A stretch of DNA of 64,000 nt from Streptomyces antibioticus (GTDB taxonomy: Bacteria > Actinomycetota > Actinomycetes > Streptomycetales > Streptomycetaceae), in assembly GCF_001514065.1 (NCBI RefSeq), contig NZ_KQ948425.1, positions 110,578 to 174,577 of the forward strand, written 5' to 3'. Positions 37,218 through 63,084 of the stretch are shown piece by piece. A program made the translations under genes and the position numbers. Each line of letters starts with the position of its first letter. Position 1 is the stretch's first letter. The notes beneath the pieces were generated by a model. That model had not been told where the DNA came from. It saw only the letters and a program-made list of their open reading frames with translations, and did no database searches.

Positions 37218-39347
37218 TCAGGTGCGGACCAGAGCGGCCAGCCGGGTCCGCAGCACTCGGGCGGCCTCGGTCATCAGCAGGTCGGCGAGGGTGTCGGGAT
37301 GGCGGGCGCGCCAGTTCTCCAGCTCGGTGCCTGCCAGATAGCCGTTGAGGGCGCCCATGGCGGGTCCGCAGGCCACCTGGTAGTCGACCCGCCGGTCGCT
37401 GCTGCCGGACATGGCGAGCCGGGTGGACTGCACGAAGTACCACTTGAAGACGAGCGCCATACGGTGCTTGGGGTCCGCGTCCGCGCGTGCGAGTTCGGCC
37501 GGGTCGCGCGTGGCGTAGTAGGCGGCCGTCTCCTGCCAGATCTCCTCGAAGCGCCGCCTGAAGATACGTTCTTGCAGCTGGCGGCGGGTGGGCGCGTCGA
37601 TGGCGTCGAGGGAGTCGTAGCGCCGGTAGAGGTCGTAGAGCTTGTTGGCGCGGGCGGGGAAGAAGAGCCCCTTGCCGAGCACCTGGGCGCGGGCGCCGAT
37701 CTCCAGCATGTCGCCCGCCGGAACCATCATGGTGTCCTGGACGCCGGCCGACTGGAGCAGGTCCTTGACGTCGTCGGCGGTGCCGGCCTCGGGCGTGCAC
37801 TGGTTGATGCTGCCGGTCAGCACGAAGTCGGCGCCCAGCAGAAAGGCCGCCGCGATCGCTTCGGGAGTGCCGAGGCCGCCCGCCGCGCCGACGCACACGG
37901 AATGCCCGACGCCCGCGGCCGTGTCGCGCAGTCGGACGATCTCCGGGAGCACGGTGATCAACTGCCGCTGGTCGGTGTGCCCGCCGGAATCCGCCTCGAC
38001 GCACAGATCGTCCGCCATCGGCAGGTACGGCGCCAGCGCGGCCTCCTCAGCACACAGCGCGCCGCTGTCCAGGAGGGCCGCCACCAGATGGGCCGGGGCG
38101 GGTGCGAGGAAGGCCCGGGCGGACTCCGGCCGCGAGACCTTGCCAAGCACGCTGTTCGGCACGGCCACGGTGCCGTCGTCGCGCCGACGCACACCCGAGA
38201 GCCGGTAGCGGACCAGGGCCGCACTGGGCTGGAGGAAAGCGGCGGCCTCCACGCGCCGGACGCCGCGGGCGAGGAAGAGGTCGACCGTCTGCTCCTCCCG
38301 GCGCGGATGGTCCGGATGGGCCAGCAGGTTCATGCCGAACGGCCCGTCCGCACCGACGTCGGCACGGATGCGGGCGATGGCCTCGTCGATCTGTTCGGGG
38401 CGCAGCCCGCCGGTGCCGAAGTAGCCCAGCAGCCCCGACCGGCCCATTCTCGCGACCAGCGCGGCGGAGGCGATCCCCTTGTACATCGAGCCGCTGACGT
38501 AGGCGAGGCGTACACCGTGACGACGGCGGAACGCGGCGCTGCCGAGCGCCTCGCCATCGGCCTGCCGTACGCCGGCGGGTGCGAACCCGTCCAGGGTGGT
38601 CATCTCGCGCGAACTCCTCGGATAGGTGCGGCCACGGGGACGCGGCCCGCGTACACAGAGCGCGGCGCGCAGCCCCACGGGGGCGTCAAGGCGGTGGCAG
38701 GTCCACAGTTCGGGCTCAGGGACGGAGGCGGTCGGGCGCAGCACCGGACGCCCGTCCCGCCAGGTGAAGTCCACGTCCCCGAACGGCAGACGCAGTCCGA
38801 GACCCATGGCCTTGGCGAGGGCTTCCTTCAGCGTCCACAGCTGGACGAAGGCGGGATGGCGGTCCGGGCCCGGCAGAGCTGACAGCGTTGTCTGCTCGGC
38901 GGGCGTCAGGCAGCTGCGCAGCGGGGAGGGATCGTCGTCCGCGAGCCGTTCGACATCCACTCCGACCGGCCTGCCCGTGGAGATCGCGACGAGTGCAACA
39001 CCCGCCGAGTGCGAAAGGCTGAACTCCCGGCTGTCGCCGAGGTGTTCGGCGATGCGAGGCTTGCCGTACCGGTCCTCGGTGAAGTCCCAGTCCTCGGGCG
39101 GCACGGACGTCCCCTCGGACAGCGCGTGCCGCAACAGCCAGTGGGCGCGGATGTACTCGTCCCGGTCGGCGGACCGCAGGAAGCCTTCGGCGCGCTGTCG
39201 CTCCTCGGGGGCTAGCACCCGCAGGCGGTCCTGGCGGATGTCGTCCCCATCGCCCGGTTCGGGCCGGGCGAGGCGCAGGACGATGTCCGGTTCGGGTGAG
39301 ACCGGCTGGTGGATCGGCCGACCGCGGGCGTCACTGCCCGCGATCAC
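37218..39347 (-). CDS. Sfp-type phosphopantetheinyl transferase fused to a PfaD-type trans-enoylreductase
   Basis: 709 residues in one frame. Residues 1-235 are an Sfp-type 4'-phosphopantetheinyl transferase: GVDVE with the magnesium ligands D131 and E133, and WTLKEALAK with E175 and K179. It would convert apo-ACPs to the holo form. From about residue 249 the protein is a PfaD-like FMN-dependent enoylreductase (YFGTGGL, GGLGTPEAIAAAF, ADFVLTGSINQC), the kind that works in trans in AT-less synthases. The synthases here contain no ER domain, so any saturated position would need it. The start is GTG, overlapping the stop of the regulator gene (GTGA). An internal ATG at 38603 (residue 249), ten bases after AGGAG, falls exactly at the domain border and could give a separate ER. 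These two functions are normally separate proteins. Confidence 0.9.
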   Translation of the reverse strand: MIAGSDARGRPIHQPVSPEPDIVLRLARPEPGDGDDIRQDRLRVLAPEERQRAEGFLRSADRDEYIRAHWLLRHALSEGTSVPPEDWDFTEDRYGKPRIAEHLGDSREFSLSHSAGVALVAISTGRPVGVDVERLADDDPSPLRSCLTPAEQTTLSALPGPDRHPAFVQLWTLKEALAKAMGLGLRLPFGDVDFTWRDGRPVLRPTASVPEPELWTCHRLDAPVGLRAALCVRGPRPRGRTYPRSSREMTTLDGFAPAGVRQADGEALGSAAFRRRHGVRLAYVSGSMYKGIASAALVARMGRSGLLGYFGTGGLRPEQIDEAIARIRADVGADGPFGMNLLAHPDHPRREEQTVDLFLARGVRRVEAAAFLQPSAALVRYRLSGVRRRDDGTVAVPNSVLGKVSRPESARAFLAPAPAHLVAALLDSGALCAEEAALAPYLPMADDLCVEADSGGHTDQRQLITVLPEIVRLRDTAAGVGHSVCVGAAGGLGTPEAIAAAFLLGADFVLTGSINQCTPEAGTADDVKDLLQSAGVQDTMMVPAGDMLEIGARAQVLGKGLFFPARANKLYDLYRRYDSLDAIDAPTRRQLQERIFRRRFEEIWQETAAYYATRDPAELARADADPKHRMALVFKWYFVQSTRLAMSGSSDRRVDYQVACGPAMGALNGYLAGTELENWRARHPDTLADLLMTEAARVLRTRLAALVRT

Positions 39348-39862
39348 CCGCCCAGAGAGGCGGTCTTCTCGCGCTCCGCGTAGGTCGTCACCACGTTGGG
39401 GATCTCCCGGGCGATGAAGCCGAAGAGATGCTGGGTGCGGTCGAGCCGCTGCCGGCGCTCGGGGTCCTCGTCCTTGAGCGTCTCCTGCGCGTCGCGCAGG
39501 ATGCGGTCGAACTCGGGGATGTTGGCGAAGACTTCGAGAACGGCGTTGGGCCAGGACTCGTCGTTCATGTGCAGGGCGTACTCGTCGGTGCCCGGGATGT
39601 CCCTGCGCAGGACCACTCGGGCCGGGACGAGCTGGTCGGCGACGCGGTCGATGGCCGCGCGCGTGGTGCCGAGCCGATCGATGAGTTCCGCGGTGGTCTG
39701 CTCCACCGGGTCACTGATCATGAGCCAGCCGATGACGTGGCCCCGTTCGTGCGGCATGCCGTCGTTGCGCCAGTAGTAGTCGGCGACTCCCTCGACGATG
39801 ATGCGCTCGGCCGCGGTAAGACCGGCCAGTGCGTCGCCGGCTTCGTTCGCATCGGTTCCCAT
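39344..39862 (-). CDS. MarR/GbsR-like winged-helix transcriptional regulator
   Basis: 172 residues from the ATG at 39862, which has GGGGGA five bases upstream. The open frame extends further, but that part has no such site. The segment from about residue 20 (ADYYWRNDGMPHERGHVIGW) through TTAELIDRLGTTRAAIDRV matches the winged helix of GbsR/MarR-type regulators, and a helical C-terminal half probably dimerises. It is the first gene of the synthase operon and overlaps the next start by four bases, so it is probably co-transcribed with the biosynthetic genes and may act on its own promoter. The divergent SARP gene shares the same 231-base intergenic region. The ligand is unknown; the polyketide itself is one possibility. 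Confidence 0.8.
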   Translation of the reverse strand: MGTDANEAGDALAGLTAAERIIVEGVADYYWRNDGMPHERGHVIGWLMISDPVEQTTAELIDRLGTTRAAIDRVADQLVPARVVLRRDIPGTDEYALHMNDESWPNAVLEVFANIPEFDRILRDAQETLKDEDPERRQRLDRTQHLFGFIAREIPNVVTTYAEREKTASLGG

Positions 39863-40093
39863 AGGTATCCCCCATCCCTTCGGGCGGTGGCCCGGGTCGG
39901 CCCGCACTGGTTTCCAGTGGGTGCGCCACATCATGTCCGACCGGTCTGGAACGAACCTGACAGAAATCTGCAATGGCTGATCACATGCGCTTCACTCCCT
40001 GCGGAGGCGAAGGCCTCCTACCGAGACACTCGGCCACGTGTTCTCATGAGCGCGGTGACCCAGTCCCCCCCCACGACAGACGAAGGAACGGCT
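39863..40093. promoter_or_regulatory. divergent intergenic region between the operon and its SARP activator
   Basis: 231 bases without a gene. It must carry the promoter of the synthase operon on one side and of the SARP gene on the other. A perfect 8-bp palindrome GACCGGTC lies near 39938. I see no convincing -35/-10 pair and no clear SARP heptamer direct repeats by eye. Confidence 0.5.
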
Positions 40094-42019
40094 GTGTCCG
40101 CTGACTTAAGCTTTCGCCTGCTAGGAGCCATAACCGCACGCCAGGGGGTCCGTCACATCAGACTCGGCCCCGCGAAACAGCAGTGCGTGCTGGCCGCCCT
40201 CCTGATAGACGCCAACCGCGTCATCCCGGTCGACGCGCTCCTCGACCGGGTCTGGCACGACGCGCCACCGGCCACCGGCCGCGCGGTCCTCTACAGTTAC
40301 GTGGCACGGATCCGCCGATTACTGCCCCGCATCCCGGCGGAGCCCGAAGCCCCCGCCATCGTCCACTCCGCGGGCGGCTACATGGCCCAAGTCTGCCCGT
40401 CCCATGTCGACCTGCACCACTTCCGCGGACTCGTCGCCTCCGCCCGCGCGGTCGCCGCGTCCGAACCGGCGCTCGCCGCCGAGCGCTACCGCGCCGCGCT
40501 GGGTCTGTGGCAGGGCGAGCCCCTGCTCGGACTCACGGGCCCCTGGGTGGAGACGGTGCGCGAGGCCCTCACCAACGAGCGGACCTCCGCCCTGACGGAG
40601 TGCCACGCGTCCGAGCTACGGGCCGGACGGCACCTCACACTCCTGCCGGAACTGGAAGCCATCGCCACCGAACGCCCCTACGACGAGGCCTCCTTGCGCC
40701 ATCTGATGACGGCCCTGCACCGATGCGGCCGCGGCGCCGAGGCCGTCGCCCGCTACCACCACACCCGCCGGCTCCTCGCCGACGAACTCGGCCTCGATCC
40801 CAGCCCCGCCACGCAGGATCTGTACCAGGAACTGCTCCGGGCGACCGCCATGGCGGGCACCGCCCCGGAACCCTCCGGACCGCTCACCGAAGCCGGCCCA
40901 GGGATCCCGGCGGCCGCTCGCCCGGCCCAACTACCCCTGACCTGCCCCACGTTCACCGGCCGTTCCAAGGAACTACGCCTGCTTGATGAATTATTGACGA
41001 GCAGATCCAGCCAGAGACGAACGCTGGTCCTGGAAGGGCTGGCGGGCGTCGGCAAGTCCACGCTCGCCCTGCACTGGTCGCACCGTACCCGAGCGGAGTT
41101 CCCGGACGGCGAGTTGTACGTCGACCTGCATGGCAGCGGCCCCCAGCCGCCGCTCGACCCCGCGACCGCGCTCGCCCGCTGTCTGCGCCAGCTCGGCATC
41201 TCCGTCACCCCGCACCCGGGCGACTGGGACGAACTGTCGGCGCTGTGGCGGTCGGTCGTGGCCCAGCGGCGCCTGCTCCTGCTGCTCGATGACGCCGCCG
41301 ACGCCGAGCAGGTGGAACCCCTGCTGCCCGGCGGACAGGGGTGCGCCACCTTGATCACCAGCCGCAGACGCCTGGACCGCCTCGTGGTCCACCACCACGC
41401 CCAACGTCTGACGGTGCCCGCCCTCACCACACCGGAGTCCACCGAACTGCTGCGGCTGCTCCTCGGCCCGTCCCGGACCCAAGCCGAACCGGAGGCCGCC
41501 GCCCGGCTGACCGAGGCCTGCGCAGGACTGCCGTTCGCCCTTCAGGTACTCGCCGCCCGACTCCAACTGCGCCCAGAAGCCCCCCTGGCCACCACGGCCC
41601 GGCAACTCGACGCGTGTTCACCGCTGAACGTGCTGCGCACCGACTCCTCCGACACCATCTCGGTACGGGCCCTGCTCGACTCGTCCTTCGTGTCCCTGCC
41701 CACCGAGGCGCAGCGGCTCCTCCCGAGTCTGGGCTCCGTCCCCTCCCCCTCGTTCCGCGCGGAACACTTCGCCGCGCACGCCCGCTGCACACCGGCGGAG
41801 GCGGAACGGGTCCTGGGCGCCCTCGTCCGGGAGCATCTGCTGTCCGAGGACGGACCACAGGGGTACGTCGTGCACCACCTGGTCCGCTGCTACGCCGCGG
41901 AACACGCCGCCCGGCCGACCCGTCCCTCGCCGCCACAGAGCACAGTCCCTTCCCCGCCGCCGGATGCCCATCGGCCGGCGATCCGCGCGAACGCGTGCGC
42001 GACACCGCTGGCACCTTGA
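40094..42019 (+). CDS. SARP-family activator with NB-ARC ATPase domain (AfsR-like, short form)
   Basis: 641 residues from the GTG at 40094, chosen because AAGGAA lies five bases before it; an in-frame ATG at 40046 has no ribosome site. Residues 1-95 form an OmpR-like winged helix (SFRLLGA, GPAKQQCVLAALLI, VDALLDRVW), residues 100-250 a bacterial transcriptional activation domain, and from about 300 an NB-ARC NTPase with the P-loop GLAGVGKST and LLLLDDAADAEQV. It stops after the helical part of NB-ARC and lacks the long TPR tail of AfsR. Three leucines are TTA codons (40106, 40319, 40991), so translation should depend on the bldA tRNA. Its place divergent from the synthase operon makes it the likely pathway activator. 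Confidence 0.9.
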   Translation: MSADLSFRLLGAITARQGVRHIRLGPAKQQCVLAALLIDANRVIPVDALLDRVWHDAPPATGRAVLYSYVARIRRLLPRIPAEPEAPAIVHSAGGYMAQVCPSHVDLHHFRGLVASARAVAASEPALAAERYRAALGLWQGEPLLGLTGPWVETVREALTNERTSALTECHASELRAGRHLTLLPELEAIATERPYDEASLRHLMTALHRCGRGAEAVARYHHTRRLLADELGLDPSPATQDLYQELLRATAMAGTAPEPSGPLTEAGPGIPAAARPAQLPLTCPTFTGRSKELRLLDELLTSRSSQRRTLVLEGLAGVGKSTLALHWSHRTRAEFPDGELYVDLHGSGPQPPLDPATALARCLRQLGISVTPHPGDWDELSALWRSVVAQRRLLLLLDDAADAEQVEPLLPGGQGCATLITSRRRLDRLVVHHHAQRLTVPALTTPESTELLRLLLGPSRTQAEPEAAARLTEACAGLPFALQVLAARLQLRPEAPLATTARQLDACSPLNVLRTDSSDTISVRALLDSSFVSLPTEAQRLLPSLGSVPSPSFRAEHFAAHARCTPAEAERVLGALVREHLLSEDGPQGYVVHHLVRCYAAEHAARPTRPSPPQSTVPSPPPDAHRPAIRANACATPLAP

Positions 42020-49829: not shown

Positions 49830-50885
49830 GCCCGACCGCCATGTCCACGGAGCGCACTGTGCGGGTGGCGGTGTCGACGTCGATCCAGTCGTTGACGTAC
49901 GACTTGGTGGTGCCCCCGGACGCGACCTGGAAGGTGCCGCCCAGCGGCGGGATGCTGTGGGCGGGGTCCGCCTTCAGGTAGGCCTCGGCGGAACGGACGA
50001 CCTCCTTCTTGATGGTGCTGAGCGTGGTCGCAGCGGTGAGTGGGGAGCCGTCGGGGTTGCGCAGACCGAGGCTCTTCTCGTAGGCCGCGAACCGGGCCGC
50101 TATCTCTGCGGCTCCCGTAGGCGAGGGGTTCTGGCCGGTGGTGTCGCGGGTGTCGAGGACGTTGTAGAGCCACTCGTAGGCCGTGTCGGCGTTGCCGAGG
50201 TCGGTGATCGGGCAGTAGGCGTTGACCGCGAAGACGTGTCGCGCAGGGTGCTGCGTCCCTGGGCGTCGATGCCGGCGGCGCCGATCGCGGCGAGGTAGGA
50301 GCTGTACTGGGCGCTGTTGCCGGAAGCGCCCAGGATCGATGCCAGCGCGCCGCCGCCGCTGGTGCCGTTGACGACGATCCGCTCGGCGCTGCCGGGCATC
50401 GTGGTGTCGTTGAGACGCAGGTAGCGCACGGCGGCCTTGGCGTCGGTGACGGCCGCAGGTGCCTTGCCGGGCAACGTGCCGTCGGCGCCGACCAGTCCGC
50501 GGCTGCGGTTGGCGACGTCGACGAAGACGTAGCCCGCCTTCAGGGCGGCACCGATGTCGCTCGTCGTACTCGTGTAGGAGGCGCCGGCGGTCACGCTGGC
50601 GCGGATGTAACTGGCCATCCAGCCGCTGTTGTTCACCGCGAAGTAGATCGGCGCCTGCTGGTCACCGAAGGCGCTCTCGGGAACGAACACGTTCATGCTC
50701 TGGTAGCCGCAGGCGGTGTTGGGGATGATGGTGCTGCCCCCGCCCGGACCGCCGGGCTGCTGCGCCGCCGCGGTGACGCGGTTCGCGACGTAGCAGATCA
50801 TCCGCAGCAGCATCCTGGTCCGGTCTTCCGTCAGACCACTGTCAGTCGTCACCGGGCGCTGGCAGGTGGTCGATTTTGCGCGCAC
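49830..50885 (-). pseudogene. subtype-B tannase-like alpha/beta hydrolase, frameshifted and truncated
   Basis: On the minus strand the segments CGYQSMNVFVPESAF, GKAPAAVTDAKAAVRYLRLN, RIVVNGTSGGGALASILGAS and SAQYSSYLAAIGAAGID match bacterial subtype-B tannases and related esterases, with the nucleophile elbow GTSGG. Near 50240 the frame changes; the neighbouring frame continues with VFAVNAYCPITDLGNADTAY as the family does. Similarity fades near 49850 (DWIDVDTATRTV), before the region that should hold the catalytic histidine. No signal peptide is visible at the 5' end, and a duplicated regulatory repeat lies just upstream. The gene is almost certainly inactive. Its original substrate (a gallate or other phenolic ester) is only inferred from the family. 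Confidence 0.75.
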
Positions 50886-50913: not shown

Positions 50914-51031
50914 GGTACCGCTGGATGCGGTACCCCTCACACTCCGTCAGCAGCAGTCCAGGTGGCATGGCCGCCATGTCTGTTCCGCGCAGTACGCCGG
51001 GGTCTGCCGGATCACACCCCAGCCGTGATCC
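50914..51031 (-). repeat. duplicated upstream regulatory repeat, copy 1, with 23-bp palindrome
   Basis: It shares order and most of its bases with 59348-59464: GGTACCGCTG, CCTCACACTCCG, then GGATCACACCCCAG. It ends in the palindrome GGATCAC-N9-GTGATCC (51009-51031). On the minus strand it lies just upstream of the tannase pseudogene, as the other copy lies upstream of the micro-peptide genes, so it probably carries a promoter and operator. Confidence 0.65.
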
Positions 51032-57457: not shown

Positions 57458-57919
57458 ATGCAGAAGTACGCGATCGTCCAGCACATCACACGGTTCTTTT
57501 GGCCTTGGCGTGGCGCGAAGCGGCAGCCGCCCACCTCCGTCCGGCGACTGGTGGGGCTCTGGCTGTTCGCGCTTGCCTTCGGGGCCGGGTTCACCGCGCT
57601 CGGCTGGGATGATGTCGACGGCAGCTTCCTCATGGCGCTGCTGCTCCTCTTCTATGTCGTCGACGACATCAGCGACGGGGTACCGCACCGCTGCCCGGCC
57701 GCACTGGCCGCGGTAACAGTCCTGTGGGGCGCCACCCGGCTCACCAGCGCCGTCCTGCCCGACTCCCTCGACAACGCCTGGGCGCAGAGCGCCGCCGCCG
57801 CTGTCGGTGTCACGCTCGGGTTGGCAGTGAGCGCAGCGATCACACGGCTTCCGGAGCACCGAACGCATCGACCCGTCGAGGGACACGACTCCGGGTTCGG
57901 CGGACAAGACTCCCGGTAA
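57458..57919 (+). CDS. uncharacterised four-helix membrane protein
   Basis: 153 residues from the ATG at 57458; GGGGGATCAGGA lies upstream. Hydrophobic segments are LVGLWLFALAFGAGFTAL, FLMALLLLFYVV, AALAAVTVLWGATRLTSAVL and AAAAVGVTLGLAVSAAIT, and the C-terminus is charged (HRTHRPVEGHDSGFGGQDSR). I recognise no family. The gene sits between two copies of the 48-bp repeat, which may mark it as part of a small transferred or duplicated unit. Confidence 0.6.
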   Translation: MQKYAIVQHITRFFWPWRGAKRQPPTSVRRLVGLWLFALAFGAGFTALGWDDVDGSFLMALLLLFYVVDDISDGVPHRCPAALAAVTVLWGATRLTSAVLPDSLDNAWAQSAAAAVGVTLGLAVSAAITRLPEHRTHRPVEGHDSGFGGQDSR

Positions 57920-57936
57920 GGACATAGCCGCCGACC

Positions 57937-57984
57937 TCGGTGACAACAAACCCGCCTTTGCGACACCAATCGCGCTTCGGCTCA
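57937..57984. repeat. 48-bp direct repeat, copy 2
   Basis: Partner of 57133-57180. It lies directly upstream of the helicase-tail pseudogene, whose first recognisable codons begin within a few bases of its end. Confidence 0.8.
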
Positions 57985-57986
57985 AC

Positions 57987-58654
57987 CGTCACCCGCGACT
58001 ACGCGAACGTCCACGGACACTGCCTGCCCGGCAACTCCGTCGTGTGGGACGACTTCGCCCTCGGAACGTGGCTCAAGACCCAGCGAGCCGCAGCCAAGAA
58101 GGCGCGTGAGAACTCCGCACGCCGCGCGAACGGGGAAACCGGCATCTCGTACGCCGAGGAAATGTCACCGTCCCGTATGCAGGCGCTCGAAGAGATCGAT
58201 CCCGGGTGGTGCCCGGAGTGGGAGCACCTGGGCACGCCGTCTGCGGTTGTTGCTCCGGCACGTCCAGGCCGGGGGCGCGCTGCCCGCCAAGGCGGGTGAA
58301 CTGGTGGTGCAAGACGAAGATCTCGCGGTGTGGATCGCCGGACAGACCGCTACGTGGGACAAGCTGACCCCGGCACAGCACCACCTCCTGGAAAGCCTCG
58401 GCATCGATCCGGACACTACAGAGCAGGTGCGGCCGGTGCGGCGGTCGCAGGATGAGTTGTGGGAGCGGAACATGGCCGCAGCCCGCCAGTTCCACGCCCG
58501 CGAGGGACACCTTCATGTGGGTCGCCAGCACCATGAGGACGTTGATGGAGAGCTTGTGGGCTTGGGGTCCTTCATCTCCAACGCCCGAAGGCGCGCAGAC
58601 AAGTTCAGCCCTCAACGACGCGATGCACTGACCGCGTTGGGCATGCCCTGGTAA
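57987..58654 (+). pseudogene. helicase-associated-domain tail of a large Streptomyces helicase, frameshifted
   Basis: The first part, VWDDFALGTWLKTQRAAAKK to MQALEEIDPGWCPEWE, and the second, LRLLLRHVQAGGALPAKAGE to GLGSFISNARRRADKFSPQR and DALTALGMPW, are helicase-associated repeats as found at the C-terminus of large Streptomyces DEAD/DEAH helicases. The frame changes by one base near 58225. The N-terminal helicase motor is absent. The stop after GMPW corresponds to the normal end of the family (often GMRW), so this is a true 3' end whose 5' part was lost. Confidence 0.75.
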
Positions 58655-58866
58655 TAGCCGAGCCTGACAGGGACGGTCCGGGCAGGGAACTGCGGGACAG
58701 CCGCGATGGCGGACGATCCCGTGAGGGGCGGCAGAGCACTCTGCCCATGCCCGGTGCAAAGCCTGCCGTCCCTGCTCAGCCACCAATACGGGCAAACGGA
58801 GCCCGGACTGCGCGCAGGCACAGCCCGGGCCCAACGACGCGTCCCGAGCTGACGACGCGTTCCCCT

Positions 58867-58989
58867 TTACGGAACGCCCGGCCCGCCACCGCAACAGGCG
58901 ACGGTCTGGGCCTGGTCGGCATTGGCAAGCGGCACTATCGCGAGCACCGCCGCCAAGGCCACGAACAAACCGAGTACAGCTTTGCGCAT
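58867..58989 (-). CDS. micro-gene for a secreted Cys-Cys peptide (paralogue 1)
   Basis: 40 residues from the ATG at 58989, with AGGAG five bases upstream. MRKAVLGLFVALAAVLAIVP continues to LANA, a textbook signal peptide with an A-x-A cleavage site, leaving a predicted mature peptide DQAQTVACCGGGPGVP. It is the last of three tandem paralogues on the same strand, 57 bases after the second. All share MRKA, the ADQ cleavage region and VACCGG. No lipobox is present, so the peptide should be released rather than lipid-anchored. I know no described family. The adjacent cysteines could form a vicinal disulfide, bind metal or be modified. Confidence 0.8.
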   Translation of the reverse strand: MRKAVLGLFVALAAVLAIVPLANADQAQTVACCGGGPGVP

Positions 58990-59046
58990 CACAACTCCTG
59001 GCGAGGGGAAACCTGGTGCAGCCCTTCTACTGCCGGTAAAAGACCG

Positions 59047-59163
59047 TTACGGCGGGATGGGATGGCCCCCACAGCACGCGACAGCCTGCAGCTGATCGGC
59101 GTTGGCAAGCGGCACTACGGCGAGTACCGCCGCCACGAACAAGCCGAGCGCGGCTTTACGCAC
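59047..59163 (-). CDS. micro-gene for a secreted Cys-Cys peptide (paralogue 2)
   Basis: 38 residues from the GTG at 59163, with GGAGG five bases before it. It begins MRKAALGLFVAAVLAVVPLA, has a signal peptide ending in ANA, and leaves the predicted mature peptide DQLQAVACCGGHPIPP. It starts 31 bases after the stop of paralogue 3, so the two are probably on one transcript. Compared with its neighbours, the hydrophobic core is two residues shorter and the tail is HPIPP instead of glycine-rich. Conservation of VACCGG between divergent tails argues for selection on that core. Confidence 0.8.
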   Translation of the reverse strand: MRKAALGLFVAAVLAVVPLANADQLQAVACCGGHPIPP

Positions 59164-59194
59164 TGTCTCCTCCTGGTTGGGAAGCGGGAGCTGG

Positions 59195-59320
59195 TCAGTG
59201 ATCCACCCCGCCACCGCCACCGCAGCAGGCGACGGTTTCGGTCTGATCGGCGCCAGCCAGAGGTGCCACGGCGAGCACCGCTGTCAGGGCGACGAACACA
59301 GCCAGCACGGCTTTACGCAC
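59195..59320 (-). CDS. micro-gene for a secreted Cys-Cys peptide (paralogue 3, first in the operon)
   Basis: 41 residues from the GTG at 59320, with GGAGG five bases upstream. It begins MRKAVLAVFVALTAVLAVAP, has a signal peptide ending in AGA, and leaves the predicted mature peptide DQTETVACCGGGGGVDH. It is the most upstream of the three and nearest to the regulatory repeat at 59348-59464, so its promoter probably serves all three. The identical ribosome site and first codons in paralogues 2 and 3 (GGAGGAGACAGTGCGTAAAG) show recent duplication. Confidence 0.8.
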   Translation of the reverse strand: MRKAVLAVFVALTAVLAVAPLAGADQTETVACCGGGGGVDH

Positions 59321-59347
59321 TGTCTCCTCCAAGTAGATGTCGAACCC

Positions 59348-59464
59348 GGTACCGCTGAACGCGGCACCCCCTCACACTCCGACGGCAGCAGCACAGGTTG
59401 CACGCCAACCGTGTCCCTTCCATGCAGCACCCCAGCCTCCCGGATCACACCCCAGACGTGATCA
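59348..59464 (-). repeat. duplicated upstream regulatory repeat, copy 2, with palindrome
   Basis: It corresponds to 50914-51031 in order and orientation and ends with GATCAC-N9-GTGATC (59443-59463). It lies directly upstream of the micro-peptide genes and probably contains their promoter and an operator. Confidence 0.65.
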
Positions 59465-59497
59465 AGCCTGCCGTCGACACCGCCCGCTCTCCCGGGC

Positions 59498-59621
59498 TGG
59501 GATAAGAACATCGCTGCGGCCCGCCAACCACACCCCCGCGAGGGGCACCAGTACGTACCGCGCCAACACAGCCAGCCCCGAACGACGCGGCGCCCTGACC
59601 GACTTGGGAATGCGCTGGTAG
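59498..59621 (+). pseudogene. second, more decayed helicase-associated-domain tail
   Basis: WDKNIAAARQPHPREGHQYV followed, in another frame, by ERRGALTDLGMRW and a stop. This matches the last 40 or so residues of the helicase-tail pseudogene that ends at 58654, with an internal deletion. The two tails bracket the micro-peptide genes. Confidence 0.65.
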
Positions 59622-59761
59622 ACGGCTGAGGCGGCGGGGAACGCGCGTACCGGGTTCACTAGCTGGCAGACGGTGCAGAGCAGTACACGACACCATTTTC
59701 AATCACTCGACCCCGGATCTTCGCTGTACCGTCTCCGCAGACGATTACGGGGAGGGTCGAG

Positions 59762-60067
59762 ATGGCCGGACGTTGGTACACAGCCCTGGGCGTGAACCTG
59801 CTGCTTGGAGTCCCGGCAGTGGTGCCGATTTGGCTGCTCTGGTTCCTGGCGGCGAACTGGGCAGGGCCTCGGGAACCCACAGAGAACGACGGCATGGCCC
59901 TGTGGCTGGTGATCATCGTCCCCGTCGTCGCTCTTTACCTGCTGCTCTGGTCTGCCGCCAACCGGCCTCTGGCACGCCGGACTTCGCTCGACGCTCGCGG
60001 CTACTGGTCGCTCAGCATCCTGGGTACTCTCCTGCCGACCGCCGCACTCATCTTCATCTCACCCTGA
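59762..60067 (+). CDS. small three-helix membrane protein, unknown function
   Basis: 101 residues, with GGGGAGGG before the ATG. Hydrophobic segments are at about 5-30 (VNLLLGVPAVVPIWLLWFLA), 45-65 (MALWLVIIVPVVALYLLLW) and 80-100 (YWSLSILGTLLPTAALIFIS). I recognise no family. It is followed by a hairpin and is probably transcribed alone. Confidence 0.65.
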   Translation: MAGRWYTALGVNLLLGVPAVVPIWLLWFLAANWAGPREPTENDGMALWLVIIVPVVALYLLLWSAANRPLARRTSLDARGYWSLSILGTLLPTAALIFISP

Positions 60068-60098
60068 TCGGATCGGCACGAATTGGGGGTCTGTCGGT

Positions 60099-60124
60099 GT
60101 GCAACCGACGATCATCGGTTACAC
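60099..60124 (+). terminator. hairpin after the small membrane protein gene
   Basis: GTGCAACCGA (60099-60108) and TCGGTTACAC (60115-60124) pair with one mismatch around a 6-base loop, about 30 bases after the stop codon. It could also be an operator. Confidence 0.55.
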
Positions 60125-60337
60125 CTGGGGCGCGGTTGTCAGCCTGAGGCGTTCTGACGGTGAAAGAGCACAGGTGGACAAGTCGGTGGCAGGCTGACCG
60201 TCGGTAAGAGACGATCACGGCGTGCACGGCCCTGCTCTTGTCGGATGCGCCCCAACTCGTTGAGCAGTGTGGTGCCGTGCTGACGTCGGATCGATGCTTG
60301 GCCTGGTGCTCTCCCCGCCGGGTCGGGAAGGACGCGT

Positions 60338-61613: not shown

Positions 61614-62552
61614 CTATTCTGGCACCGAAATGATCGTTCCGCTTTGGTCGAACCAACGCTCGCCCGTAGGGTTGCCGTTGGCGTCATAGTCAAAAACCTT
61701 CCGGAAATAGGGAAACTCGCGATCCGGCGATCTCCCAGCATCGGTTACGATCTCCTCAGTTGTGGGGAGGCCGAGCGCGTCGTAATAAACGATACGCGCT
61801 GTTGCCTCGCCGAGATAGCGCATCGTTTTCGTCGCGCGAACACCTGTTTTAGGGTTGTAGGTGTAGTACCAAACGTCGTCGAGTACGGCCCACGCGCCGG
61901 ACTCGTCCAGGGAGTACATTTTGTTTTCAATGACTCGGCACTGATCGTCGTACTCGAACTGCTTATAGTGGGCCAGAGTGCCATTATTGTAGACATTGAC
62001 ACGCGAGACGATCCCTGAATTCCATACGATGTTATAGCTGGCCCCGAGTGAGGCCATCTGCGACGTGGGCCCAATGCCGGCCGGCTGTCCAAGGTTGGAG
62101 ATATTGAGCCCCTTGTACCAGCGAGACCCGCTGTAGCTACCGTCCACACCACGAATTTTGTCGACCATTCGCTTCACGTTATGCGAGTAGAATTTCCGTT
62201 TAGTGAAGTCGATCCTGTGCAGGTGTGCGATACGATCCGGGACATTTTTCACCAATGGCTGCACGACGACAGGCAGGATGTAACTTTCTCGCTTATCCAT
62301 CACTGCACGAGAGAAAGCTTGCTCGAATTCAACTTCGCGTACATAAAATGAGTCGAGGGCGGCAGGTGATAGTGCGAAGCAGAAGTATCGGCTGTCCCTG
62401 ATTCCTTGCTCGATAGTCTTGTGAACTGAATCGCCAACCGTGAGTTCGATCGTATCGAGCCAGACGTCCAAACCATGGTCCACAAGATCTGCTGCCAGGC
62501 GATTCACGAATCGAGCATTGCGCCTGGAATAGGAAATGAAGAGATCGTGCAC
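61614..62552 (-). CDS. TIR-domain protein with YD-repeat-like C-terminal region
   Basis: 312 residues if started at the GTG at 62552, ten bases after AGAGGAG; this places the TIR domain at the N-terminus, as is usual. ATGs at 62573, 62630 and 62729 would lengthen it. Residues 1-135 are a TIR domain: HDLFISYSRRNARFVNRLAA, VWLDTIELTVGDS, and SPAALDSFYVREVEFEQA, whose first glutamate fits the NADase position. The C-terminal half contains YD-type strand repeats (LAHYKQFEYDDQCRVIENKM, VFDYDANGNPTGERWFDQSG). GC content is visibly lower than in the rest of the window, and transposase genes lie on both sides, pointing to horizontal acquisition. Many stand-alone bacterial TIR proteins act in phage defence by consuming NAD; that role is inferred here. 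Confidence 0.82.
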   Translation of the reverse strand: MHDLFISYSRRNARFVNRLAADLVDHGLDVWLDTIELTVGDSVHKTIEQGIRDSRYFCFALSPAALDSFYVREVEFEQAFSRAVMDKRESYILPVVVQPLVKNVPDRIAHLHRIDFTKRKFYSHNVKRMVDKIRGVDGSYSGSRWYKGLNISNLGQPAGIGPTSQMASLGASYNIVWNSGIVSRVNVYNNGTLAHYKQFEYDDQCRVIENKMYSLDESGAWAVLDDVWYYTYNPKTGVRATKTMRYLGEATARIVYYDALGLPTTEEIVTDAGRSPDREFPYFRKVFDYDANGNPTGERWFDQSGTIISVPE

Positions 62553-63084
62553 TGATTGCCAACTCCTCTGCATGTACGACCAGAGCGCGCGCACCGTGCC
62601 AAGCCTGCCATCTATGGGCTTCTCGTTCATGGACACAGCGCGGGCGAACCTTGTTTGTTCCGTGAGTCCCTGATCCTTGAGCGTACCGAAAACGCGTCGA
62701 TCCTCCGGCCACAATGAATCGAACCGCAACTACTCGGCCGCTGAGGCCTCTCCCACTCCCCGCGGCAGTTGGGCAGCTAACCTGACAGGCAGGTGAAGCC
62801 CCTGGTAGATGGGTTTTCGACCAAAGAAACGTCTCCACCAGAGGCTTCACACGCTTGTCTGCTCGTCCGGCGTCGAGCGCTGACAGGTCCACCACCGCCT
62901 GGCCGCCGCGCCCTGGCCGCCCGACCGTACCGCCACCTCGACGGTGCCCACTGTCCACCAGTGTGCCGTTACCGGGCGTACCCCGCGCCGGAATCCATCG
63001 CTCCACCATACGAAGGGTGATCCCACCATGCCGTTGTCGACGGTCACAGTTCTGGTTCAGGCCGCGATTCCGTGAATCCCCAGA
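62553..63084. other. region between the TIR gene and the ISL3 remnant
   Basis: It contains the possible 5' extension of the TIR frame (to 62729), a 17-bp inverted repeat (62793-62850), and the outer end of the ISL3 element. I see no separate gene. Confidence 0.4.
62793..62850. repeat. 17-bp imperfect inverted repeat
   Basis: GTGAAGCCCCTGGTAGA (62793-62809) and the reverse complement of 62834-62850 agree at 15 of 17 positions, with a 24-base spacer. It may be an IS end, an operator or a terminator for neighbouring transcription. Confidence 0.6.

Follow-up and report, generated by a model that had tools for sequence, protein, structure and literature searches.

Tandem micro-genes for putatively exported peptides with a conserved vicinal-cysteine core in Streptomyces

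Results

The window, a stretch of 64,000 nucleotides of Streptomyces antibioticus DNA, carries three successive micro-ORFs on the minus strand, each with its own Shine-Dalgarno site (Table 1). These ORFs had been pointed out in a preliminary description, and a second reading of the DNA returned all three, together with the same mature sequences. AGGAG or GGAGG lies immediately 5' of each frame, and the encoded peptides read VRKAVLAVFVALTAVLAVAPLAGA/DQTETVACCGGGGGVDH, VRKAALGLFVAAVLAVVPLANA/DQLQAVACCGGHPIPP and MRKAVLGLFVALAAVLAIVPLANA/DQAQTVACCGGGPGVP, where the slash marks the presumed cleavage position. The products of genes 2 and 1 are 79 and 73% identical to that of gene 3, and at the DNA level the array is a 106-nt repeat, with 63 and 75% identity to the reference copy and spacings of 180 and 151 nt. 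The span originally given for the unit, 58867-59320, is correct for the ORFs but too short, since a promoter-like block and a terminator-like hairpin also belong to it.

Table 1. Positions of the peptide array, its associated elements and flanking features in the window
Feature	Position	Strand	Remarks
Peptide gene 1	59195-59320	-	41 aa, GTG start, stop included; Shine-Dalgarno site 59321-59332
Peptide gene 2	59047-59163	-	38 aa, GTG start, stop included; Shine-Dalgarno site 59164-59176
Peptide gene 3	58867-58989	-	40 aa, ATG start, stop included; Shine-Dalgarno site 58990-59003
Promoter-like block GCAACCTG..CGGAGTGTGAGG	59370-59401	-	Exact match; about 50-80 nt 5' of the first start codon
Leader hairpin GCCGCGTTCAGCGGTACC	59346-59365	-	Folds in the window
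Small intergenic hairpin region, genes 2/3	59019-59042	-	Weak; counterpart of the GCCAGCGGAAGCGCTGG hairpin of other species
Terminator-like G+C-rich hairpin	58798-58832	-	No T run; predicted -31.2 kcal/mol for 43 nt
Orphan promoter-like block	50935-50966	-	Match to the block of the S. antibioticus genome; no peptide ORF behind
End of helicase-associated (HA) domain flanking the array	58451-58645	+	Pfam PF03457, E 6e-18

The array is flanked by the end of a helicase-associated domain and, on its other side (59498-59620), by a related DNA repeat (D2/D3) without a Pfam match. Elsewhere in the window, the region 11770-39347 (minus strand) and 39296-42019 (plus strand) holds very large ORFs (4035 and 4134 aa) that appear, from their translations, to encode modular polyketide synthases; judged in the same way, small acyltransferase-like and other ORFs and then a SARP-like regulator ORF belong to this region. 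A TIR-domain protein (TIR_2, E 5e-23) is encoded on the minus strand at 61614-62729, amid transposase remains.

When up to three mismatches were allowed, the promoter-like block was found five times in the S. antibioticus genome; four of these matches precede peptide arrays and one is an orphan, while the reversed control gave none. The orphan block and its leader now precede an ORF at 50100-50885 with a match to BD-FAE esterase, and the site looks like a dead peptide locus. Across 29 first copies, 69.7% of the leader structure is paired, versus 25.8-45.1% when the structure is slid, and its covariation score was equalled by four of 500 shuffles. Many first copies have CAACC about 80 nt before the start codon (among the 29, the motif falls at 70-79 nt eight times and at 80-89 nt three times), followed in order by a hairpin of the type CCGCTTCAAGCGG, a smaller hairpin and the ribosome site; the leader is absent from several first copies, for example those of L026, L032, L069, L075 and L079 (L, locus; G, genome).

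Between copies, other species carry GCCAGCGGAAGCGCTGG or a relative of it, and the element 3' of the last copy is AGGGCCCGTCAGCTTGCTGGCGGGCCCT or a relative. The 3' hairpin was aligned from 18 of 29 last copies, the 11 without a visible hairpin of that kind being omitted; in these 18, 91.2% is paired, versus 39-52% when slid. Of 500 shuffles of this alignment, 81 equalled the covariation score and 56 the pairing percentage, and because this is so frequent we regard the 3' hairpin as an instance of conservation, not of covariation. A scan for T-run terminators yielded nothing and did not pick up the hairpin at 58798-58832, a scan for sigma-70-type promoters was equally empty, and Rfam gave no match at E <= 1 in 57800-60300. 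An ECF-type promoter was weighed without being adopted. Many arrays look self-contained, with a promoter-like block, a leader hairpin, one to three ORFs and a terminator-like hairpin.

For the analysis of conserved residues, 43 distinct full-length peptides were aligned and four were added later, giving 47, all from Streptomyces. Matches that scored under 60 bits, exceeded 45 residues or had a start other than M or V had been excluded before counting, among them both L029 ORFs, L038, those of L076, L078, L083, L084 and L085, the fragments of L011, L012 and L031, and the 153-residue relatives described below. All 47 peptides have a ribosome site and exactly two cysteines, always within A-C-C-G. 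The core is TVACCG in 41, AVACCG in two, TIACCG in two, TAACCG in one and TTACCG in one. An invariant VACCGG had been proposed at first; ACCG is indeed constant and usually stands within TVACCG, but the second G is a variable position.

Cleavage sites and signal peptides were assigned by our own residue rules, according to which all 47 short precursors carry a Sec-type signal peptide. K or R occurs among residues 2-4 in every one; at position -1, 43 have A, three S and one V, at position -3, 46 have A and one T, and a Pro is found at -7 to -4 in 46 of the 47. The predicted mature peptides have 16 residues in 31 cases, 15 in seven, 14 in six and 17 in three. Their tails come in 31 different forms, with a Pro at most four residues after CCG in 42 of 47, and none of the 47 peptides fits either of the lipobox patterns used (G+LPP and a loose one). 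At the level of sequence, the early description of the products as secreted micro-peptides holds, with a basic N-terminus, an A-x-A-type site and a Pro kept in all or nearly all 47.

We calculated dN/dS by the method of Nei and Gojobori for the 43 peptides. Over the 903 pairs, the values are 0.18 for the signal peptide, 0.96 for the first four mature residues, 0.05 for TVACCG, 1.03 for the tail and 0.29 for the whole. In the same region order, 17 tandem pairs gave 0.25, 0.78, 0.06, 1.23 and 0.38, and 103 pairs of at least 85% identity gave 0.11, 1.27, 0.04, 0.92 and 0.22. The proportion of synonymous differences (pS), at 0.30 in the core, falls short of the 0.46 of the signal peptide, perhaps through codon bias. 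The uneven spread of substitutions across regions agrees with the suggestion, made when the genes were first noticed, that the core is selected; as judged from these comparisons, the signal peptide and TVACCG are under strong purifying selection and the other mature residues are nearly free.

Positive selection on the tail was considered but not adopted. In the four youngest tandem pairs, chosen for low head divergence from 13 comparable ones (17 in total, four with heads of unequal length), the heads are almost identical and the tails are not. Tail pN is 0.32 against a head pS of 0.115 (p = 0.002), but tail pS is also 0.31, and 42 of 216 sites differ in the 55 nt upstream. Since synonymous tail sites and upstream DNA change as well, diversifying selection is not asserted: a nearly free tail, or homogenisation of the heads, accounts for the young pairs as well as diversification does.

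Homologues with the frame kept occur both in the S. antibioticus genome and elsewhere across Streptomyces. In the former (10.1 Mb, 29 contigs), a profile search found 11 full-length copies at five loci (E 2e-24 to 8e-18) plus two fragments, at C4:356-427 and C4:300320-300382, and three weak matches (E 0.03-0.1) that chance probably explains. In a sample of 61 relatives, the only genome with the family was that of S. antibioticus itself. A genus sample of 392 genomes contains at least 28 with a match at E <= 0.01 and at least 13, S. antibioticus included, with a full-length copy at E <= 4e-17; G091 has truncated copies and a relative only, and 14 genomes have weak matches only (E 4e-4 or worse). 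At least eight of 394 genomes were positive in a family-level sample (one of 17 genera) and at least three of 296 in a phylum-level sample (one of 198 genera). The three samples overlap, and 19-25 candidates were scored per genome, which makes the counts lower bounds and the absences soft. GTDB contigs provided 14 loci from 13 genomes, all Streptomyces. There was no match in 72,556 plasmid records or 50,697 phage records, and none was confirmed in viral contigs. By these searches, the family is known so far from Streptomyces only.

On chromosome-scale contigs, whose ends we took as chromosome ends, six of 11 loci with full-length copies lie less than 300 kb from the end (G338, 42 kb; G152, 67 kb; G133, 234 kb; G320, 29 kb; G231, 21 kb; L027, 26 kb), and the others, namely a second locus of G152, those of G132 and G629 and two of G716, lie 0.7-3.6 Mb inside. 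At L033 the telomere genes tap and tpg adjoin the peptide locus (NF047542, 1028.5 bits; NF047541, 281.3 bits); no Tap protein above the family cut-off was found in the S. antibioticus genome, the contigs of which are not whole arms. A passage in Lorenzi et al. 2021 (PMC8627663) speculates that social genes reside on chromosome arms, and the peptide family is compatible with that picture as set out there, without testing it.

The neighbourhood was surveyed with our own gene calls and ORF filters, giving 112 proteins within 2.5 kb at 26 loci, in which we considered Pfam families with at least two members. By this measure the 112 neighbours include no recurring family of receptors, modifying enzymes, transporters or immunity proteins, and none of TPR, metal or redox type; small unnamed immunity genes might escape the ORF rules. 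A constant downstream gene of sulfur or cysteine metabolism is likewise absent, the neighbours varying by locus. The commonest Pfam family is the LysR substrate domain (six), followed by transposases and LysR/HTH domains (four each), and 81 of 106 families have a single member. All-against-all comparison of ORFs from 32 loci, made in search of a shared partner gene, gave no family in more than eight loci; the largest group consists of the peptide ORF with an upstream open frame in five loci and of a 153-residue secreted protein in three.

A LysR gene is divergent from the array at L026, L039, L075 and L077, and lies farther away, behind a transposase, at L080. We searched for it in the 392 genomes, scoring five candidates per genome, and rejected it as a cognate regulator: homologues of at least 79% identity occur in at least eight genomes, and for five of these eight neither the genome search nor a look at the surrounding 1.5 kb or so yielded a peptide. 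A LysR match at E <= 1e-60 is present in five of 14 peptide-bearing genomes and stands beside the peptide in three. We treat this gene as an optional companion. Secreted proteins are more frequent among near genes (13 of 39) than farther away (22 of 163; one-sided p = 0.005), an excess that, with a home-made signal-peptide rule, our own gene calls and related loci, is only a hint.

Several individual neighbourhoods deserve mention. A serine hydrolase of beta-lactamase fold is encoded directly upstream at L036 and L077, I36 or I36-like secreted proteins are found near L012, L032, L073 and L079, and EACC1-caspase conflict modules near two loci (L012:7068-9003 and L082:6331-8210). At L028:4648-6304, the sole such case noticed in 26 loci, an ECF sigma factor gene and a CU044_5270-like gene lie directly 5' of two peptide genes on the same strand. 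The 153-residue secreted protein (L031:960-1418, L076:5700-6161 and L083:6794-7255) combines a different mature domain with a signal peptide resembling those of the micro-peptides, possibly through signal-peptide swapping; it has no Pfam or NCBIfam match. Local rearrangement is indicated on the minus strand at L031:51-286, where two inverted fragments duplicate the C-terminal half of the peptide encoded nearby (LAGADQSVTVACCGGTPGFP), and at L026, L075 and L133 a stretch like ACTGTCGCCTGCTGGTGGCACGGG, seemingly a decayed extra peptide copy, lies just 5' of the first copy.

None of 43 members matched a Pfam, NCBIfam or PADLOC profile at E <= 0.01, and one of the 43 touched the unnamed PHROGs family phrog_22098 (E 0.007). 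The three window peptides gave just sub-threshold matches to unrelated models, and no related solved structure was found (best E 0.11). In the portions of the open-access literature available, no paper on the family was found, and the string TVACCG leads to a paper on CTX-M detection. Small exported peptides are a known kind, and we have not found a family with this vicinal-cysteine core described. That the family is real is nearly certain.

Discussion

We propose that the array is a compact operon of exported peptides that would act outside the cell as a pheromone-like signal by way of TVACCG, a reading derived from the DNA and its homologues to which we give a probability of roughly 40%. A precursor of about 40 residues would be exported by Sec and cleaved after A-x-A, releasing a peptide of 14-17 residues. 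As no other mature residues are kept, activity should reside in the hexapeptide core; the functional unit would be (T)VACCG, perhaps after further trimming outside the cell. Less surely, this core may be an extracellular pheromone-like signal common to streptomycetes, in which the vicinal cysteines, closed into a small disulfide ring or left as free thiols, may be what is recognised. Genes for its receptor and uptake would lie elsewhere than beside the array. A signalling role is favoured by the frame-kept homologues, the constancy of both cysteines, of ACCG and of the ribosome site, the kept cleavage residues, the low dN/dS of core and signal peptide, the self-contained anatomy and the missing lipobox. 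It is weakened by the lack of a recurring TPR receptor family among the 112 neighbours, by tails without clear diversifying selection and by the small share of positive Streptomyces genomes (at least 13 of 392).

The main rival is an extracellular metal- or redox-active peptide, in which the vicinal dithiol would bind a soft metal or react with thiols or oxidants and the flanks would merely be soluble. An invariant core with a free tail suits such a constant chemical target at least as well as it suits a receptor: ACCG alone is invariant, the other mature residues have dN/dS near 1, no cognate receptor gene is at hand, and several copies would raise the dose. We nevertheless hold it to be rather unlikely, given that the T and V preceding the cysteines are kept in most members, which is superfluous for simple thiol chemistry, and that no metal or redox Pfam family with two or more members recurs nearby. 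An antimicrobial or kin-competition peptide directed at related strains would agree with the frequent placement near chromosome ends, the patchy distribution and the tandem copies with unlike tails; with no immunity or modification family recurring among the neighbours, and with just two cysteines in a peptide of 14-17 residues, it is the less probable of these two. The suggestion in the preliminary description that the peptide might be modified has lost ground, no modifying-enzyme family recurring beside the genes, and the signal is preferred over a RiPP or bacteriocin for this reason and for the equal lack of a dedicated peptide-transporter family among the neighbours.

Two further explanations were weighed. 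Length, hydrophobic stretch and tandem intergenic copies recall toxins of the Hok/Ldr/Fst type and could point to an uncleaved membrane micro-protein, yet the A-x-A-type site and the preceding Pro are kept in nearly all members, conservation peaks in the mature core and Rfam found nothing in the region searched, which leaves this reading improbable. Adjacent Cys codons followed, in many arrays, by a kept terminator-like hairpin might suggest a cysteine-responsive leader peptide that attenuates a downstream gene; the entire signal peptide is under selection, however, as many as three ORFs follow one another, and the downstream genes vary by locus and often lie on the opposite strand, all of which makes an attenuator hardly credible.

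Returning to the extracellular signal, its boldest form would be an oligopeptide made on the ribosome and left unmodified, with which Streptomyces would broadcast one invariant vicinal-dithiol TVACCG with variable tails from a gene family of patchy occurrence, often near chromosome ends; we consider this form doubtful. If true, peptides would serve as a language in a phylum whose typical known signals are small molecules made by enzymes, for which gamma-butyrolactones are the example in the relevant parts of PMC10075063 and PMC4748050. A cheap test with a synthetic peptide is feasible for a family that has 11 copies in a single genome, a six-residue core under strong selection and no match in Pfam, NCBIfam or PADLOC, and the family profile offers a means of looking for such micro-genes.

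Among known systems, type I toxin peptides (Hok, Ldr, Fst) are of similar size and have a hydrophobic stretch and tandem intergenic copies; unlike them, the Streptomyces family keeps a predicted cleavage site and a mature core, and with regard to an antisense RNA antitoxin, Rfam shows no family at E <= 1 in 57800-60300. Precursors of RiPPs (lanthipeptides and others) resemble it as small genes with a kept leader, cysteines in the mature part and variable tails. In place of a leader recognised by enzymes, however, the Streptomyces peptides have a Sec signal peptide, and a RiPP is disfavoured because recurrent modifying enzymes are missing among the 112 neighbours. Enterococcal sex pheromones of the cAD1 type, derived from lipoproteins, share the principle of a short active peptide from a secretion precursor; a lipoprotein origin is disfavoured here because the lipobox is missing in all 47 peptides.

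The pheromone propeptides of Bacillota of the RRNPP type (Phr, PapR, NprX, AimP) are likewise short Sec-type precursors of a mature peptide of few residues. Tandem or duplicated signals also occur in such systems, as a section of PMC11343458 indicates, and in the account given in part of PMC10075063 they consist of two adjacent genes, for propeptide and receptor. The Streptomyces family has no recurring receptor family nearby, and a textbook RRNPP system is disfavoured for that reason. It differs from the RRNPP type also in the placement of its conserved part, which is internal (TVACCG) and is followed by a variable C-terminus.
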